Positions 8,953 to 38,187 of a stretch of DNA of 64,000 nucleotides are shown piece by piece. The position numbers and the translations under genes are program-made. Under the pieces are notes generated by a model. That model did no database searches. It was given only the letters and a program-made list of their open reading frames with translations, and had not been told where the DNA came from. Position 1 is the first letter of the stretch; the number at the start of each line of letters is the position of its first letter. The stretch is taken from NCBI GenBank assembly GCA_015231795.1, contig JADGAX010000003.1:62001-126000 (forward strand). The letters are read 5' to 3'. Source of the DNA: Alphaproteobacteria bacterium (lineage in GTDB: Bacteria; Pseudomonadota; Alphaproteobacteria; Rhodospirillales; WMHbin7).

Positions 8953-9546
8953 CTATCGAATATAGGCCGCCATATAGCCGCGGATATTTTCGCTCAAGCG
9001 GGCGTCAAGTTCCTTCATCATGGCTTCGACCATTTCGTACCAGACTTGGTCTTTCTGGTTGAGGGTGACGTCTTCCGGCACGCTCTGCACCCTTGTCGCC
9101 TTGGCCTCGGCCGAAGACAAAATCATGCCCCGCGCGTCGCGGATGGTCAGTTCGACCGCCAACTGGGAATTGTAGCGCGCCGACTGTTCCGTCTTGAACA
9201 TGCCCGTAAAGCCCTTGTCGGTCTTCAAATCGGTTTCGGTGACCGGGGCGTCCAGGATGCGAAATTCGGCCCGCAAGGGACCACCCACCGCCACCAGCCG
9301 GTCTTTGGCCCAGATGCGGGCGGCGGCTTCGGGCGAGAAGTTCATCAGATGCTCGACATTGGGGGCGGCCAGCGGCGCCTTGTAGCTGCTGACGACATCC
9401 ACCTGCGACACGGCGAGGCGGAACTGACCCAGATGGGCAAAGCTCATGCTGGGTTGGCTTTTGGGCGGCGGCGTGGTTTCGCAGGCCGCAAGAGCCAGGG
9501 GCAGGGAGATGGCGGCCAGGGCCAAAAGAGCGCGGCGCGTGATCAT
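8953..9546 (-). CDS. Conserved lipoprotein of unknown function
   Basis: The 197-residue product has an N-terminal signal peptide with two arginines and a lipobox ALAA-C (Cys at about residue 22). A folded region of about 170 residues follows without a domain I can name. It resembles alphaproteobacterial lipoproteins often annotated as hypothetical. Its ATG overlaps the stop codon of the upstream nuclease gene (ATGA overlap), so the two are translationally coupled and probably act in the same envelope compartment. Confidence 0.75.
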   Translation of the reverse strand: MITRRALLALAAISLPLALAACETTPPPKSQPSMSFAHLGQFRLAVSQVDVVSSYKAPLAAPNVEHLMNFSPEAAARIWAKDRLVAVGGPLRAEFRILDAPVTETDLKTDKGFTGMFKTEQSARYNSQLAVELTIRDARGMILSSAEAKATRVQSVPEDVTLNQKDQVWYEMVEAMMKELDARLSENIRGYMAAYIR

Positions 9547-10367
9547 GGGTCTTCCTCTTCGCTGGGCGGTGATGTCGTTGGCTGCGATGCTGAGGCTGAT
9601 TTATGGCCTTTTTCGGGCGGCGCGTCGAGCAGTTCCAGTTGTTCGGGATGGCTAAGTTCGATCATCGGGCCGTTGGTCAGAATGACGAAGCCGCGCACCC
9701 GCACCTTCTGGCCCTCCAACTTCTTGGGCGTGATCTTGGCTTGGCGCAACCGTTTGCCTGCCTCGCCATTCAGGGTCAGGGTAAAGTCGGTTTTCCAGTC
9801 GGGGCCGAAATTAAGGTAAGTTTTGCCCGTACCCCGTCCGGTGGCCAAAATCCTGCCTTCGACGATTTCAAACCGACCGGCGGGAACGAAACCATCGGCG
9901 GGGCGCAGGTGGTAGCGCTTGTCGGCCCACAGCCCCTGGCGTTGCTCGCGGGCCTGACTTTCCAGCGCAAGCAGCGTTTCAGCGCCCATTGCTGCATCGG
10001 ACTGGGTGGCGACGCGGGCAAGGCCGCGCAACAGCAATTCGGCTTGCAGCCAAGTGTCGCTGCCCAGCAAGGCGGCCTGGGCGCGCCTGCGCCCATAGCG
10101 GTCTGGCGGCGCTTCGGCGGCCAGGATCAATTTCTTGCCGCGCACCAGCTTGTCCAGCGCCTTTCTGGCCGTATCCGCCAACGGCTCGTCGTCCTTGGGG
10201 GCCAAAAGCCCCATCAGGCGCAATTCCTTGCCGTTGGACAGGCGAATAGTGTCGCCGTCGATCGCTTCTTGCGCGGCGATCGTCTCGCCCAGGGCAAATC
10301 CTTCCGGCAATGGCAGAGCCAGGGCTGGCAGGGGCAAAAGCAGAAAGGCCAAGAGTAGAAAACGCAT
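9543..10367 (-). CDS. Secreted thermonuclease-family (SNase-like) protein
   Basis: The 274-residue protein has a cleavable signal peptide (about 1-17) and a staphylococcal-nuclease-like OB-fold with the IDGDTIRL and DRYGRRRAQ signatures. It also has a second beta-rich half, residues 165-245. Family members hydrolyse nucleic acids, or have lost activity and bind them. The conserved Arg/Asp pattern suggests activity, but the key glutamate is not certain from inspection. It is co-transcribed with the following lipoprotein gene. The C-terminal tail is rich in Ser, Pro and Glu. Confidence 0.72.
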   Translation of the reverse strand: MRFLLLAFLLLPLPALALPLPEGFALGETIAAQEAIDGDTIRLSNGKELRLMGLLAPKDDEPLADTARKALDKLVRGKKLILAAEAPPDRYGRRRAQAALLGSDTWLQAELLLRGLARVATQSDAAMGAETLLALESQAREQRQGLWADKRYHLRPADGFVPAGRFEIVEGRILATGRGTGKTYLNFGPDWKTDFTLTLNGEAGKRLRQAKITPKKLEGQKVRVRGFVILTNGPMIELSHPEQLELLDAPPEKGHKSASASQPTTSPPSEEEDP

Positions 10368-10392: not shown

Positions 10393-10472
10393 CTCGCGTG
10401 CAAGGCACGCGCGCCGGGTTCCATCCCGGCGGGAGCCTAGGGATGCGGAGCATCCCGCCCGGCGCCTGAGGG
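10393..10472 (+). repeat. Structured dispersed repeat, copy 1
   Basis: This 80-base element folds into three hairpins in a row: GCGTGC/GCACGC (10396-10410), GCCGGG/CCCGGC (10413-10430) and GGGATGC/GCATCCC (10440-10456). It ends in CGCCCGGCGCCTGAGGG. A second copy lies at 37253-37330 on the other strand. The first hairpin, the GGGAGCCTAG linker and the 3' end are nearly identical between copies. The second and third stems differ in sequence but remain paired. GCGCCGGG at the start of hairpin 2 can alternatively pair with CCCGGCGC near the 3' end. It sits between the rpsA terminator and the nuclease gene. Confidence 0.75.
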
Positions 10473-10495
10473 CAAACGAATAACGACTACCAACG

Positions 10496-10555: not shown

Positions 10556-12235
10556 TCAACCTTCCTTCGACTGCTTTTCGCGCATGGCGGCGCCCAGGAT
10601 GTCGCCGAGCGAGGCGCCCGAGTCGGCCGAGCCGTAATCGGCCATGGCCTGCTTCTCTTCCTCGATCTCGCGGGCCTTGACGGACAGCGTGAACTTGCGG
10701 CTCGACTTCTCGATGGCGGTGATCTTGGCGTCGATCTTTTCGCCGATGGCGTAACGCTCGGGCCTTTGATCGGCGCGGTCGCGAGCCAGTTCCGCCTTGC
10801 GGATGAAGCCCGTAACGCCCTCGGTGATCTGCACCTCGACGCCGTTTTCCTGCACCTGCGTAACGGTGCCGGTGACCACGTCGCCCTTCTTGAAGCTGGA
10901 AGCGGCGCCAGCGAACGGATCGCTGGTCAGCTGCTTGATGCCCAAGCTGATGCGCTCCTTCTCGACGTCGACGTCCAGCACCTTGCACTTGACGTGGTCG
11001 CCCTTCTTGAAGCCCTGCAGGGCCTGCTCGCCGGGCTTTTCCCAATCCAGGTCGGACAGATGCACCATGCCGTCGATGTCGCCGGTCAGGCCCACGAACA
11101 GACCGAATTCGGTGATGTTCTTGACCTCGCCTTCGACTTCGCAGCCCACCGGGCACTTGTCCAGGAAGCCGCCCCACGGATTTTCCATGGTCTGCTTCAG
11201 GCCCAGCGAAATGCGGCGCTTGGCCGGATCGACGTCCAGCACCATGACTTCCACTTCCTGCGAGGTGGAAACGATCTTGCCCGGATGGACGTTCTTCTTG
11301 GTCCAGCTCATTTCGGAAACGTGGACCAGACCTTCGACGCCGGGTTCCAGTTCGACGAACGCGCCGTAGTCGGTGATGTTGGTGACGCGGCCCGTGTACT
11401 TGGCGCCGACCGGATACTTGGCGTCAACGCCTTCCCACGGATCGGCTTCCAACTGCTTCATGCCAAGCGAGATGCGCTGGGTTTCCGAGTTGAAGCGAAT
11501 GACCTGCACCTTGACGCTCTGGCCGATATGCAAGGCTTCCGACGGATGGTTGATGCGCTTCCAGGCGATGTCGGTGACGTGCAACAAACCGTCCACGCCG
11601 CCCAGATCGACGAACGCGCCGTAGTCGGTGATGTTCTTGACCACGCCATCCAGGATCTGGCCTTCCTTCAGGCTTTCGATCAGTTCCGAACGCTGCTCGG
11701 CGCGGGTCTCTTCCAGCACGGCGCGGCGCGAAACCACGATATTGCCGCGTGAGCGGTCCATCTTCAGAATTTGGAAGGGCTGGGGGTTGCCCATCAGAGG
11801 CCCGATGTCGCGCACGGGGCGGATATCGACCTGGCTGCCCGGCAAGAAGGCCACGGCGCCCGACAGATCGACGGTGAAGCCGCCCTTGACGCGCCCGAAA
11901 ATGGTGCCGTTGACGCGCTGAGCCGCCGTAAAGGCCTTCTCCAGAACGGTCCAAGCCTCTTCGCGCTTGGCCTTTTCGCGAGACAGCATCACCTGGCCGT
12001 CGCGATCTTCATAGCGCTCGACGAAAACGTCGATCACGTCGCCGATCTTTACTTCGGGCGAGCGGCCGGGGGCTGCGAATTCCTTGGTGGCGATGCGGCC
12101 TTCGCTTTTGAGGCCCACATCGATCATCGCCCAGTCGCCATCGACGGAGACGACGGTGCCCTTCAGCACTTGGCCTTCAAAGCCGCCGGTGCCAAAGGCT
12201 TCATTCAGGAGGTCAGCGAAATTCTCGGTCATCAT
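10556..12235 (-). CDS. rpsA: 30S ribosomal protein S1
   Basis: This protein of about 559 residues has six S1 RNA-binding repeats in a row. It shows the recurring sequences VKNITDYGAFVDLGG, GLLHVTDIAW and RISLGMKQLE, matching the length and layout of bacterial S1. S1 sits on the 30S subunit and brings mRNA to the ribosome. Two adjacent ATGs (12235 and 12232) are possible starts; AAAGGA lies about 12 bases before the first. It is downstream of cmk, the conserved cmk-rpsA order, and is followed by a strong terminator. Confidence 0.95.
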   Translation of the reverse strand: MMTENFADLLNEAFGTGGFEGQVLKGTVVSVDGDWAMIDVGLKSEGRIATKEFAAPGRSPEVKIGDVIDVFVERYEDRDGQVMLSREKAKREEAWTVLEKAFTAAQRVNGTIFGRVKGGFTVDLSGAVAFLPGSQVDIRPVRDIGPLMGNPQPFQILKMDRSRGNIVVSRRAVLEETRAEQRSELIESLKEGQILDGVVKNITDYGAFVDLGGVDGLLHVTDIAWKRINHPSEALHIGQSVKVQVIRFNSETQRISLGMKQLEADPWEGVDAKYPVGAKYTGRVTNITDYGAFVELEPGVEGLVHVSEMSWTKKNVHPGKIVSTSQEVEVMVLDVDPAKRRISLGLKQTMENPWGGFLDKCPVGCEVEGEVKNITEFGLFVGLTGDIDGMVHLSDLDWEKPGEQALQGFKKGDHVKCKVLDVDVEKERISLGIKQLTSDPFAGAASSFKKGDVVTGTVTQVQENGVEVQITEGVTGFIRKAELARDRADQRPERYAIGEKIDAKITAIEKSSRKFTLSVKAREIEEEKQAMADYGSADSGASLGDILGAAMREKQSKEG

Positions 12236-12322
12236 ATTACGGGGTAGTCCTTTCAAACGTCGCTATCCAGGCCAACCGGTTGTCTCCGGCGGTCTTGGTC
12301 ATGTTCGCGGATGAAACGATTT

Positions 12323-14966: not shown

Positions 14967-15042
<76 letters not shown>

Positions 15043-35703: not shown

Positions 35704-37242
35704 TTATTTAAGGAATAGGAAGACCAAGAGAATGGCCGCCGCTACCCAGGCCAGCGAGCAGGCCGAGCAAACTTTGCGTTTATGTCCTGATTTCAAGGCT
35801 CCAAGCGTGTCGGGATGCAGCTTGATTCCCTGACTGGACAGCATGCCTGCCACTTTTTGGCCCTGGGAAATGATATGGGGCAGGCTGGCGATGCCGCCCG
35901 CCGTCCCCGTTACGGCCTCCTTGAGGCGGGCCAACGGCCCCAGGTGATCGGCCATCCAACCCTGAACCATGGGCTGGGCCAGCATCCACATATTCAGGTC
36001 GGGGCACAGGCTGCGCCCGACCCCTTCGGTGACCAGCATGCTTTTCTGGAGCAGCAGCAACTGAGGCTGAACTTCCATCTCGAACGTCTCGGTAATCTGG
36101 AACAACTGGCCCAGTAGCCGGGCCAGGGAAATTTCGGAAAGCGGGCGGCCTAGGATGGGTTCGGCGATCGAACGGCAGGCCTGGGCGAAGGTTTCGACCG
36201 ACTTGTGGCCCGGCACGTAGCCCGCCTCGAAATGAACTTCGGCGGCGCGCTTGTAATCGCCGGTCAGGAAGCCCAGCAACATTTCGCCCAGATAGCGGCG
36301 GGTGGAAAGGTCCAAACGGCCGGTGATGCCGAAATCGACGGCGATCAGATTGCCGTTCGCATCGACGAACATGTTGCCGGGATGCATGTCGGCGTGAAAG
36401 AAGCCGTCGCGGAAGACCTGATTGAAAAAGGCGGCGGCGGCCTTCTCGACCAGCACCTTGGGATCGAAACCGGCCTCGATCAGGCGTTCGCGTTCGTCGA
36501 CCGGAATGCCGTGCACGCGTTCGAGGGTCAGGACGCGTTTGGCGGTGCGCGTCCAATCGACCTCGGGAATGTTGAAACTGTCGTCGCTGGCGAAATTCTC
36601 GGCCATTTCGGCAGCGGCGGCGGCTTCGAAGCGCAAATCCATTTCCAGCAGCACCGTCTCTTCGATGGTGCGCACGGTTTCAATGGGTTTCAGGCGACGA
36701 AGCTGGGGTTGGGTGGCTTCCACGATTTCCGCCAGCCAAAGCAGGAAATCGAGATCGCGGGCGAAGGCCTGTTCGATGCCGGGGCGCAACACCTTGACCG
36801 CCACTTCGCGACCTTCGACGGTGACGGCGAAATGTACCTGCGCGATGGAAGCCGCCGCCACCGGCACATCGTCGAAACTGGAATACAGGCTGTCTAGGGG
36901 TTGGGCCAGTTCGGCCTCGATGGTGGCTTTGGCCTGGTCGCTGGGGAAGGGATCGAGGCGGTCTTGCAGTTCCGACAGATCGGCGGCGATTTCGTCGCCC
37001 AACAGGTCCGAGCGCGTGGACAGGGTTTGTCCGAATTTGATGAAGCTGGGACCCAGTTCGATCAGGGCGGCGGCCAGCCGCTGGCCGGGCCTGCCCGGCG
37101 CCTTTCGCCAATTGGTGAGCTTGACCAGAAGCGCTACCTGATGGCCGATGCCGAAATGGTCCAGCAGAAATAGGGCGTCATGACGCGCCAGGACGCGGGC
37201 GATATGAATCAGGCGGGAAAAATTGCGGACGAAACGGATCAT
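35704..37242 (-). CDS. ubiB: UbiB family protein (ubiquinone biosynthesis)
   Basis: The 512-residue protein has the ABC1/ADCK kinase-like fold with the KFGQTLSTRSD segment, an Ala-rich nucleotide loop (PVAAASIAQVH) and the HADMHPGNMF motif. C-terminal hydrophobic helices end in AWVAAAILLVFLFLK and anchor it. UbiB supports ubiquinone synthesis. It follows ubiE on the same strand, and the second copy of the structured repeat lies just before its start codon. Confidence 0.93.
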   Translation of the reverse strand: MIRFVRNFSRLIHIARVLARHDALFLLDHFGIGHQVALLVKLTNWRKAPGRPGQRLAAALIELGPSFIKFGQTLSTRSDLLGDEIAADLSELQDRLDPFPSDQAKATIEAELAQPLDSLYSSFDDVPVAAASIAQVHFAVTVEGREVAVKVLRPGIEQAFARDLDFLLWLAEIVEATQPQLRRLKPIETVRTIEETVLLEMDLRFEAAAAAEMAENFASDDSFNIPEVDWTRTAKRVLTLERVHGIPVDERERLIEAGFDPKVLVEKAAAAFFNQVFRDGFFHADMHPGNMFVDANGNLIAVDFGITGRLDLSTRRYLGEMLLGFLTGDYKRAAEVHFEAGYVPGHKSVETFAQACRSIAEPILGRPLSEISLARLLGQLFQITETFEMEVQPQLLLLQKSMLVTEGVGRSLCPDLNMWMLAQPMVQGWMADHLGPLARLKEAVTGTAGGIASLPHIISQGQKVAGMLSSQGIKLHPDTLGALKSGHKRKVCSACSLAWVAAAILLVFLFLK

Positions 37243-37252
37243 TTGCTATCGC

Positions 37253-37330
37253 CCCTCAAGCGCCGGGCGCGTTTCTCCGAAACGCTAGGCTCCCGCGCGC
37301 ACCGGCGCGCGCGCGTGCCTTGCACGCGAG
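37253..37330 (-). repeat. Structured dispersed repeat, copy 2, in the ubiE-ubiB gap
   Basis: Read on the minus strand this 78-base element has the same order as copy 1 (10393-10472): CTCGCGTGCAAGGCACGCGCG, a second hairpin (here a GCGCGC stem), GGGAGCCTAG, a third hairpin (GCGTTTC/GAAACGC around GGA) and CGCCCGGCGCTTGAGGGG. Stem sequences differ from copy 1 but pairing is kept. It lies in the ubiE-ubiB gap, is in the mRNA sense, and ends 11 bases before the ubiB ATG, where its TTGAGGGG could act as a ribosome-binding site. Confidence 0.75.
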
Positions 37331-37366: not shown

Positions 37367-38113
37367 TCACAGTCGCCACGCCGAATGGATGGCGGCGATG
37401 CCGCCCGACAGGTTGCGATAGCGGGCCTGCTCCAGCCCAGCCTCTTCCATCATCGAGACCAGTTCTTCCTGGGCCGGGAAACGGCGGATGCTTTCGGCCA
37501 GATACTGATAGGCCTCGGCGTCGCCCGCCACTTTGGAACCCAGCCAGGGCAGGACCGAAAAGGAATAGGTATCGTAAATCTTGTCGAATACCGGCAAGAC
37601 GACGCGGCTGAATTCCAGGCAGAAAAAACGTCCGCCGGGCTTCAAGACGCGTTTGGCTTCGGCCAGGGCCAAGTCGATATGCGTAACGTTGCGAAGACCA
37701 AAGGCGATGGTGTAGGCGTCCAGGCTGGCGCTGGGCAGCGGAAGACGTTCGGCGTCGCCCACCACCCAGTCAAGTCCCTGCAAATAGCCTTTGTCGATGG
37801 CTCGCTCGCGGCCCACCTTCAGCATTTCCGCATTGATGTCGCAAACGGTCACCTGTTCGCCGCCGCGATCCAGGAAGCGAAAGGCGATGTCGCCCGTGCC
37901 GCCGGCGACGTCCAGCAGATGCTCGCCCGGACGGGGTTTGACGGCGTCGATGAAGGCGTTCTTCCAAAGCCGGTGGATGCCCAGGCTCATCAGGTCGTTC
38001 ATCAGGTCGTAGCGGGGCGCTACGGAATCGAAGACGGCCCTGACCAGCGAGGCCTTTTTGGCCTCTTCCACGGTCTGAAAGCCGAAATGGGTGGTCTGCG
38101 GTCGTTCATTCAT
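37367..38113 (-). CDS. ubiE: Ubiquinone/menaquinone methyltransferase UbiE
   Basis: This protein of about 248 residues is a SAM-dependent C-methyltransferase of quinone synthesis. It has VFDSVAPRYDLMND, the SAM loop LLDVAGGTGDIAFRF and the FGLRNV motif. The ATG at 38113 is chosen; another at 38128 would add five residues, and neither has a good ribosome-binding site. It is the first gene of the ubiE-ubiB unit and is divergent from rpsT. Confidence 0.93.
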   Translation of the reverse strand: MNERPQTTHFGFQTVEEAKKASLVRAVFDSVAPRYDLMNDLMSLGIHRLWKNAFIDAVKPRPGEHLLDVAGGTGDIAFRFLDRGGEQVTVCDINAEMLKVGRERAIDKGYLQGLDWVVGDAERLPLPSASLDAYTIAFGLRNVTHIDLALAEAKRVLKPGGRFFCLEFSRVVLPVFDKIYDTYSFSVLPWLGSKVAGDAEAYQYLAESIRRFPAQEELVSMMEEAGLEQARYRNLSGGIAAIHSAWRL

Positions 38114-38187
38114 GGGGGAAACATACATTAACTTTTGGCCAAGTCCCTATATTAATATGCAAAGAGGGGTTCGGCGCCACTCGGGGC

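Follow-up and report, generated by a model that had tools for sequence, protein, structure and literature searches.

A small mobile repeat of alphaproteobacteria with covarying hairpin stems

Two copies in the window and their relatives

The window analysed here, a stretch of 64,000 nucleotides from an alphaproteobacterial genome of the order Rhodospirillales (contig JADGAX010000003.1 of assembly GCA_015231795.1; G000 below), contains two copies of a short hairpin-rich repeat (Table 1). Copy 1 lies between a nuclease-domain gene and rpsA and is antisense to both, and copy 2 lies between ubiE and ubiB. The first-pass annotation had placed these elements at 10393-10472 and, on the opposite strand, at 37253-37330. 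Both are real. A covariance model of the four-hairpin unit (R1, built from 38 rows) sets their limits at 10395-10473 (+; 101.8 bits) and 37252-37328 (-; 83.0 bits), scores that follow from the construction of the model because both copies are among its 38 rows. No further convincing copy was found with R1 in the 64-kb window (next best E 0.03). The window also holds a tRNA gene at 14967-15039 (+).

As had been claimed, hairpin H1 is identical in the two copies, the linker, the GGA loop of H3 and the tail are kept, and most of both arms of H2 and H3 differ, with both copies remaining paired. Absent from that description were a fourth hairpin at the 3' end of the unit (H4, GCCC-GGCGCNTGA-GGGC) and a putative three-pair contact between GCC of the linker and GGC of the H4 loop.

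Table 1. Parts of the two repeat copies and the genes beside them (window positions; A4, alignment of distinct copies described in the text)
Feature	Position	Strand	Remark
Copy 1 hairpin H1, CGCGTGC-AAG-GCACGCG	10395..10411	+	7/7 pairs change on both sides somewhere in A4
Copy 1 hairpin H2, CGCCGGG-TTCCAT-CCCGGCG	10412..10431	+	6/7 pairs change on both sides
Copy 1 conserved linker, GGAGCCTA	10432..10439	+	10435-10437 (GCC) can pair with 10461-10463 (GGC, H4 loop)
Copy 1 hairpin H3, GGGATGC-GGA-GCATCCC	10440..10456	+	6/7 pairs change on both sides
Copy 1 terminal hairpin H4, GCCC-GGCGCCTGA-GGGC	10457..10473	+	1/4 pairs changes on both sides; outermost often unformed
Left 13-base direct repeat flanking copy 1, CTATCAACGAAAA	10377..10389	+	From the sequence; one such stretch in the aligned part of G003, which lacks copy 1
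Right 13-base direct repeat flanking copy 1, CTACCAACGAAAA	10487..10499	+	From the sequence and the G003 comparison
Copy 2 hairpin H1 (identical to H1 of copy 1)	37312..37328	-	From the sequence and R1
Copy 2 hairpin H2, CGCGCGC-CGGT-GCGCGCG	37294..37311	-	From the sequence and R1
Copy 2 conserved linker, GGAGCCTA	37286..37293	-	GCC (37290-37288) can pair with GGC (37264-37262, H4 loop)
Copy 2 hairpin H3, GCGTTTC-GGA-GAAACGC	37269..37285	-	From the sequence and R1
Copy 2 hairpin H4	37252..37268	-	GAGGGG upstream of the ubiB start ATGA
Gene for a protein with a staphylococcal-nuclease (SNase) domain	9543..10367	-	
rpsA (30S ribosomal protein S1)	10556..12256	-	
ubiB	35704..37242	-	
ubiE	37367..38128	-	

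A covariance-model search of the kind suggested in the first-pass annotation turned up further copies in the genome, with pairing kept. In the 3.63 Mb of G000, blastn gave 22 matches and R1 at least 45 at E <= 0.1 (44 of these at E <= 1.1e-4), the latter count coming from 150 scored out of 5500 first-look candidates. A second genome of the same genus (G003) has 39 matches at E <= 0.1, four of them weak. A match at E <= 0.001 was obtained in 68 of 199 genomes (33 of 86 genera) within the order; in the survey of the class, 25 of 385 genomes have one at E <= 0.0001, and two of these (G000 and G025) belong to the order of the window. Five genomes hold 10 to 60 matches each. At least 120 stretches fit a strict pattern of H3 and tail, and Paramagnetospirillum, Telmatospirillum, Terasakiella, Magnetovibrio, Roseomonas, Neoroseomonas and Roseicella are among the matches listed; Roseomonas and its kin we take to be Acetobacteraceae. 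The family is thus widespread in alphaproteobacteria. Also among the matches listed are records titled Erythrobacter vulgaris or Stygiobacter MAG (L153 and L222), outside the expected groups, for which horizontal transfer, contamination or mis-binning are possible sources.

Phage and plasmid records gave no blastn match to the element, and the strict pattern had no exact match in viral contigs. Rfam models matched only a tRNA in the window, and in seven loci searched at E <= 1 the gathering score was reached by a tRNA only; a known Rfam RNA family was rejected because no match to the element reached that score. Among open-licence PubMed Central papers we found no published description of this family, and the portions considered of the survey and review literature are silent on it. 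Tandem arrays of the element, with a period of roughly 96 to 110 bases, were seen at L016, L083, L112, L150, L218, L236 and L249, and the units of the L016 and L083 arrays start with GGAGCGCAGCGACCTAGG where H1 usually stands. The counts given below derive from regular-expression matches, which number 243 once redundancy is removed and include a few that are evidently due to chance; 229 could be parsed for H3 and 211 had called genes on both sides.

Ends, target duplications and empty sites

The element is dispersed and mostly intergenic, and its full-length form is mobile, with a 3-base TNA duplication. It is short and carries no gene of its own. The core measures about 80 bp. Full-length copies, about 140-155 bp long, carry two extra hairpins that form their ends and were absent from the first-pass annotation, the order being TACC, hairpin H0, H1-H4, hairpin H5, GGTA. 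These TACC/GGTA ends share a degenerate similarity over 22 bases, in pairs that were picked by threshold; no clear inverted ends were seen in the core forms, including the two copies of the window. In 30 of the 243 matches exactly one TACC and one GGTA fell within the search windows, which made these copies usable in the duplication test. Identical triplets flank 24 of the 30 (shuffle mean 7.1, largest value 15 in 2000 shuffles), and the triplet is TNA in 27 of 30 on the left and 29 of 30 on the right. The target-site duplication of full-length copies is of fixed length. It is unclear for copy 1, whose 13-base near-identical flanking repeat could be a target duplication or something else and is unexplained by the TNA scheme.

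Thirty G000 loci were compared with 1.6 Mb, about 44%, of G003. Seven were occupied in both genomes and three were empty in G003 with a visible duplication in G000 (L060, L069, L071). Four were absent from G003 without clean edges (L058, L064, L067, L068), two were partly present there (L083, L086), one had one side displaced (L072), and 13 either lacked a clear counterpart or repeated another site of the set. At L069, one TAA in the empty G003 site corresponds to two in G000. At L060, the single TGA of G003 lies within an ATGA stop/start overlap and is again doubled in G000. At L071, the triplet GAA fits less cleanly, as G003 reads GAAGAA.

Copy 2 is common to G000 and G003 and is absent from G001 and G004, in which ubiE and ubiB overlap without a spacer; a TGA duplication at this site would fit. 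In G002 (L266), an unrelated palindromic stretch, CCTCACCCTGAGGA...TCCTCAGGATGAGGCG, was seen between ubiE and ubiB, so the same operon gap has been hit twice by different repeats. Copy 1 is absent from G003. In G001 a copy lies across the rpsA terminator from this site, and for that reason it is probably an independent insertion.

No mobilising enzyme was found. A transposon-sized pair of such ends was likewise not seen in 2.58 Mb of loci, to which G000 contributed its window only. In G000, the full-length 5'-end pattern with up to two mismatches occurs at 90 places, as opposed to 69 for the reversed control, and the three exact matches are known copies.

A second gene-less repeat was encountered in G003 (L312:5945-6212) and at loci of G001 and G002 (L360, L361, L363, L364, L366-L371). 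It measures about 260 bp, is bounded by long inverted ends (TACCAGYTTGCAGAATRAACAACC) and shows TNA duplications. Its pattern matches 13 times forward and 10 times in reverse in G002, several of these near contig ends, and not at all in G000. The tip of its ends, TACCA, is the same as that of the hairpin element. Copies are gene-less wherever both ends were seen, and several loci are cut by contig ends, so a longer relative is possible.

Covariation, a putative pseudoknot and the strand that pairs

In alignment A4, whose 107 distinct rows were aligned to the model and hence lean toward its structure, pairing is found in 94.7% of cells (68.9% shuffled), the covariation score is 0.478 (0.104 shuffled; at most 0.059 with the structure slid), and 20 of the 25 pairs change on both sides. 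Because A4 was fitted to the structure, the counts were repeated on a MAFFT alignment and on H3 without any alignment. The MAFFT alignment (A1, 37 distinct rows) gave a score of 0.259 (0.070 shuffled; at most 0.058 slid). Without alignment, H3 occurs as 93 distinct stem-loops in the 229 parsed copies; 69 of the 93 are free of mismatches if G.U is allowed and 58 if only Watson-Crick pairs are. The loop is GGA in 66 and its reverse complement TCC in none. Hairpin H4 is short and varies little, with the outermost pair formed in 51 of the 107 copies, although the variants GCAC/GTGC and GCGC/GCGC exist. H2 and H3 types combine in many ways among the copies.

A contact between GCC of the linker and GGC at the start of the H4 loop was first suggested by the fold of copy 1. 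In A4, standard pairs fill 99.7% of the cells of the three pairs concerned. The linker reads GGC in six of the 243 matches: in five of them (L132, L133, L141, L209, L247) the loop reads GCC, a sequence found in none of the 237 copies without linker GGC. The exception is another copy at L141, with linker GGC and an unchanged loop. The covariation thus amounts to one pair changed in five copies from at least three genera, with one copy against. The linker would accordingly covary with the loop of the fourth hairpin as in a pseudoknot, for which the evidence is good but thin because it consists of one covarying pair in few lineages.

Were the element constrained only as double-stranded DNA, each mismatch should be as frequent as its complement. 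Among distinct helices, G.U outnumbers A.C by 28 to 8 and G.A/A.G outnumbers T.C/C.T by 15 to 1; for inner pairs only, the former count is 18 to 7 (p 0.043), all these counts being drawn from related sequences. Tandem G.A is present in H2 and makes up six of the seven two-mismatch H3 stems. From this asymmetry we infer that the strand read from H1 to H4 is the one that must pair, as RNA or as single-stranded DNA. Predicted folds favour this strand slightly: the mean probability of the consensus pairs is 0.645, versus 0.589 for the opposite strand, as RNA, and 0.676 versus 0.642 as DNA. In single-sequence RNA folding, which is weaker evidence than covariation, copy 1 has a z of -2.20 and copy 2, whose best fold differs from the four-hairpin model, a z of -0.55; the opposite strands fold about equally (-2.41 and -1.68), that of copy 1 as well as the strand itself. 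As DNA, both copies form H1-H4 (z -3.33 for copy 1 and -2.42 for copy 2). Loops of the C-GNA-G type, according to what Hirao in 1994 and Yoshizawa in 1997 are said to have found, are very stable in DNA, which does not by itself decide between RNA and single-stranded DNA.

Interpretation and comparison with known repeats

The explanation we favour, with a probability of roughly two in three, is that both copies in the window represent the core form (H1-H4) of a small mobile element that is non-autonomous, one strand of which must fold in the element's own life cycle and whose new stems arise by jumps and are kept if paired. At some step of that cycle, one strand, as RNA or single-stranded DNA, would fold into H1-H4, with the AGCC linker and the loop of H4 joined in the pseudoknot. 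The loops and the linker would be read by a partner, probably a transposase supplied from elsewhere, and the stems would matter only as stems. New stems would appear in jumps, either through template switching (hairpin-templated repair) or because copies exchange hairpins, and only paired ones would be retained. By inserting at TNA, in many cases at a stop codon or an ATGA stop/start overlap, the element would spare the neighbouring genes. A stricter version, in which the element cannot do without a folded, pseudoknotted single strand, be it as an intermediate or as the object recognised, so that selection sees the stems purely as stems, and in which hairpins are rewritten in place by template switching or exchange, is put forward tentatively, and we lean against it; if it were true, the family would be a many-copy natural experiment on how stems change their sequence without passing through unpaired states.

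The most serious alternative, in our estimate unlikely, is that the repeat has been domesticated as a cis-acting structured RNA of host mRNAs, serving in 3'-end protection, attenuation or as a translation-initiation leader. Structured RNAs typically have pseudoknots, most resident sites have stayed paired, and the sequence GAGGG stands about 11 bases before ATG. The copies are also tightly intergenic: only 20 of the 211 with genes on both sides, as called without curation by a codon-usage script, overlap a gene by more than 20 bases. Sense starts lie 9 to 25 bases past the tail in 16 cases. In 11 of these the start is ATGA, and in nine of the 11 it follows TGAG by 10 to 12 bases. A further 45 copies have an opposing gene whose stop is no more than 25 bases from their end, orthologous copies being counted separately in both tallies. 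Against such a role, the folded strand is sense in 51 copies and antisense in 50 between co-directional genes, and copy 1 itself is antisense to both its neighbours. Convergent sites (83) outnumber divergent ones (27), as expected for harmless insertion, and several sites are empty in the sister genome. Replication shows no strand bias either in G157, the sole genome so tested (29 versus 31 of its 60 copies, with origin and terminus set by eye from 20 skew samples). The combination of no preference with respect to host transcription or replication and a clear preference for the pairing strand places the constraint, as we infer, in the element's own life cycle and not in its use by the host.

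The first-pass annotation took the covariation to mean selection on structure and not only common descent. The covariation is indeed real and extensive, but selection is only a part of the story, as is seen at insertions common to G000 and G003. At four of the seven, whose surroundings are about 90 to 97% identical, a stem has changed on both arms. In the pair L061/L306, H3 is wholly different, including the loop (GGA versus ACA), and H1, H2 and the rare GCAC form of H4 are unchanged. In L063/L328 the H3 stems are different, one pair of H4 has changed on both arms, and a G.U in H2 is one-sided. In L074/L358, two pairs of H1 and most of H2 have changed on both arms, with H3 kept, and in L087/L286 two bases differ in each arm of H2 (GA..GA versus TT..AA), the G000 copy also having an unpaired closing base in H1. 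Of the others, L059 has an identical core, L065 one change in the linker, and L079 a deletion in H2 and a G.U in H3; not every change at shared sites, therefore, has kept pairing. A look-up of stems, in which one palindromic string was counted twice, found the H3 of L306 at three places in G003, including its own. The H2 that L087 has in G000 turned up once elsewhere, in G003, and the remaining stems of these pairs that were looked up occur only at their own sites. Such changes of several bases on both arms at orthologous insertions fit template switching or exchange between copies, both possible sources of new stems.

Carried further, these observations would do without structural selection altogether: template switching between arms (quasipalindrome correction), together with copying between elements, would keep the stems paired. 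The multi-base changes on both arms, such as that in L087/L286, speak for this proposal, and template switching is reported, in the cited part of PMC8794818, to create hairpins and to maintain or mend them. We nevertheless consider it improbable, since selection is still needed to account for the conserved loops and linkers (with TCC never seen as the H3 loop), for mismatches whose strand asymmetry symmetric correction does not give, and for the covariation of the linker with the H4 loop across H3, which arm switching within one hairpin does not produce.

Slightly less probable still is an element of the REP/BIME type, which would be mobilised by a Y1 (RAYT) transposase through recognition of hairpins in single strands. 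The units are palindromic, some stand in tandem arrays (L016, L150, L218), and one copy in G002 (L053:918-1004) lies about 500 bases from a gene for a Y1 (RAYT-like) transposase. However, there is no Y1_Tnp match in G000, a genome of 100% completeness with 45 model matches, and G003 and G002 have one and two Y1 matches, respectively. The five other Y1 loci (L052, L054-L057) lack the tail motif. No GT(A/G)G head was found beside H3, where the conserved flank is AGCCWAG, and the 3-base target duplication likewise speaks against this type. The two-state RNA switch formerly proposed, through GCGCCGGG/CCCGGCGC, is very improbable and is rejected as a family trait, for although copy 1 has both arms, the competing arm GCGCCGGG occurs in only 8 of the 107 distinct A4 copies (9 of 37 in A1), as opposed to 98 of 107 for the pairing tail CCCGGCG, and the RNA and DNA folds of copy 1 both leave the competing stem unused.

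The usual reading of covariation is that it proves an RNA to be functional. In the present family, a textbook case of it, including a putative pseudoknot, sits in a mobile repeat that prefers neither strand relative to host genes, and some of this covariation arises in multi-base jumps at fixed sites. This calls for caution in searches for structured RNAs. With its many copies, a sister genome in which some of its sites are shared and others empty, and conserved loops as anchors, the family offers a tractable system for studying how compensatory changes occur.

Among known repeats, the BOX elements belong to the pneumococcus, a host from a different phylum. Like the present element, BOX (boxA-boxB-boxC) is modular, intergenic and foldable and is thought once to have been mobile, as described in the cited part of PMC3049150; in the present family each module is a single hairpin, with stems that vary from copy to copy, a distinction drawn from the description of BOX and not from its sequence. 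CGTC-tagged palindromic repeats are alphaproteobacterial and palindromic, as is this family, but they are reported missing in Acetobacteraceae, where this family occurs often; this separation, too, is made by description, from the portion used of PMC3733652. REP/BIME sequences with their RAYTs are palindromic intergenic repeats whose stem-loops matter as single strands, according to the section cited of PMC2817692; they differ in the GT(A/G)G head, in place of the AGCCWAG beside H3 here, in the Y1 enzyme, for which G000 gave no match, and in the target duplication seen here. The use of a TNA target with a 3-bp repeat is a habit of IS1031-type elements (IS5 subgroup), as stated in the part cited of PMC12016507, although the ends here begin with TACCA and those of ISLrh are 17-bp repeats starting with GA (same source and part). 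The element resembles bacterial MITEs in being small and gene-less, with a short target duplication and, in full-length copies, TACC/GGTA ends of degenerate similarity; it differs from them in that a parent insertion sequence was not found here, in its GC-rich sequence and in internal hairpins that covary across families.
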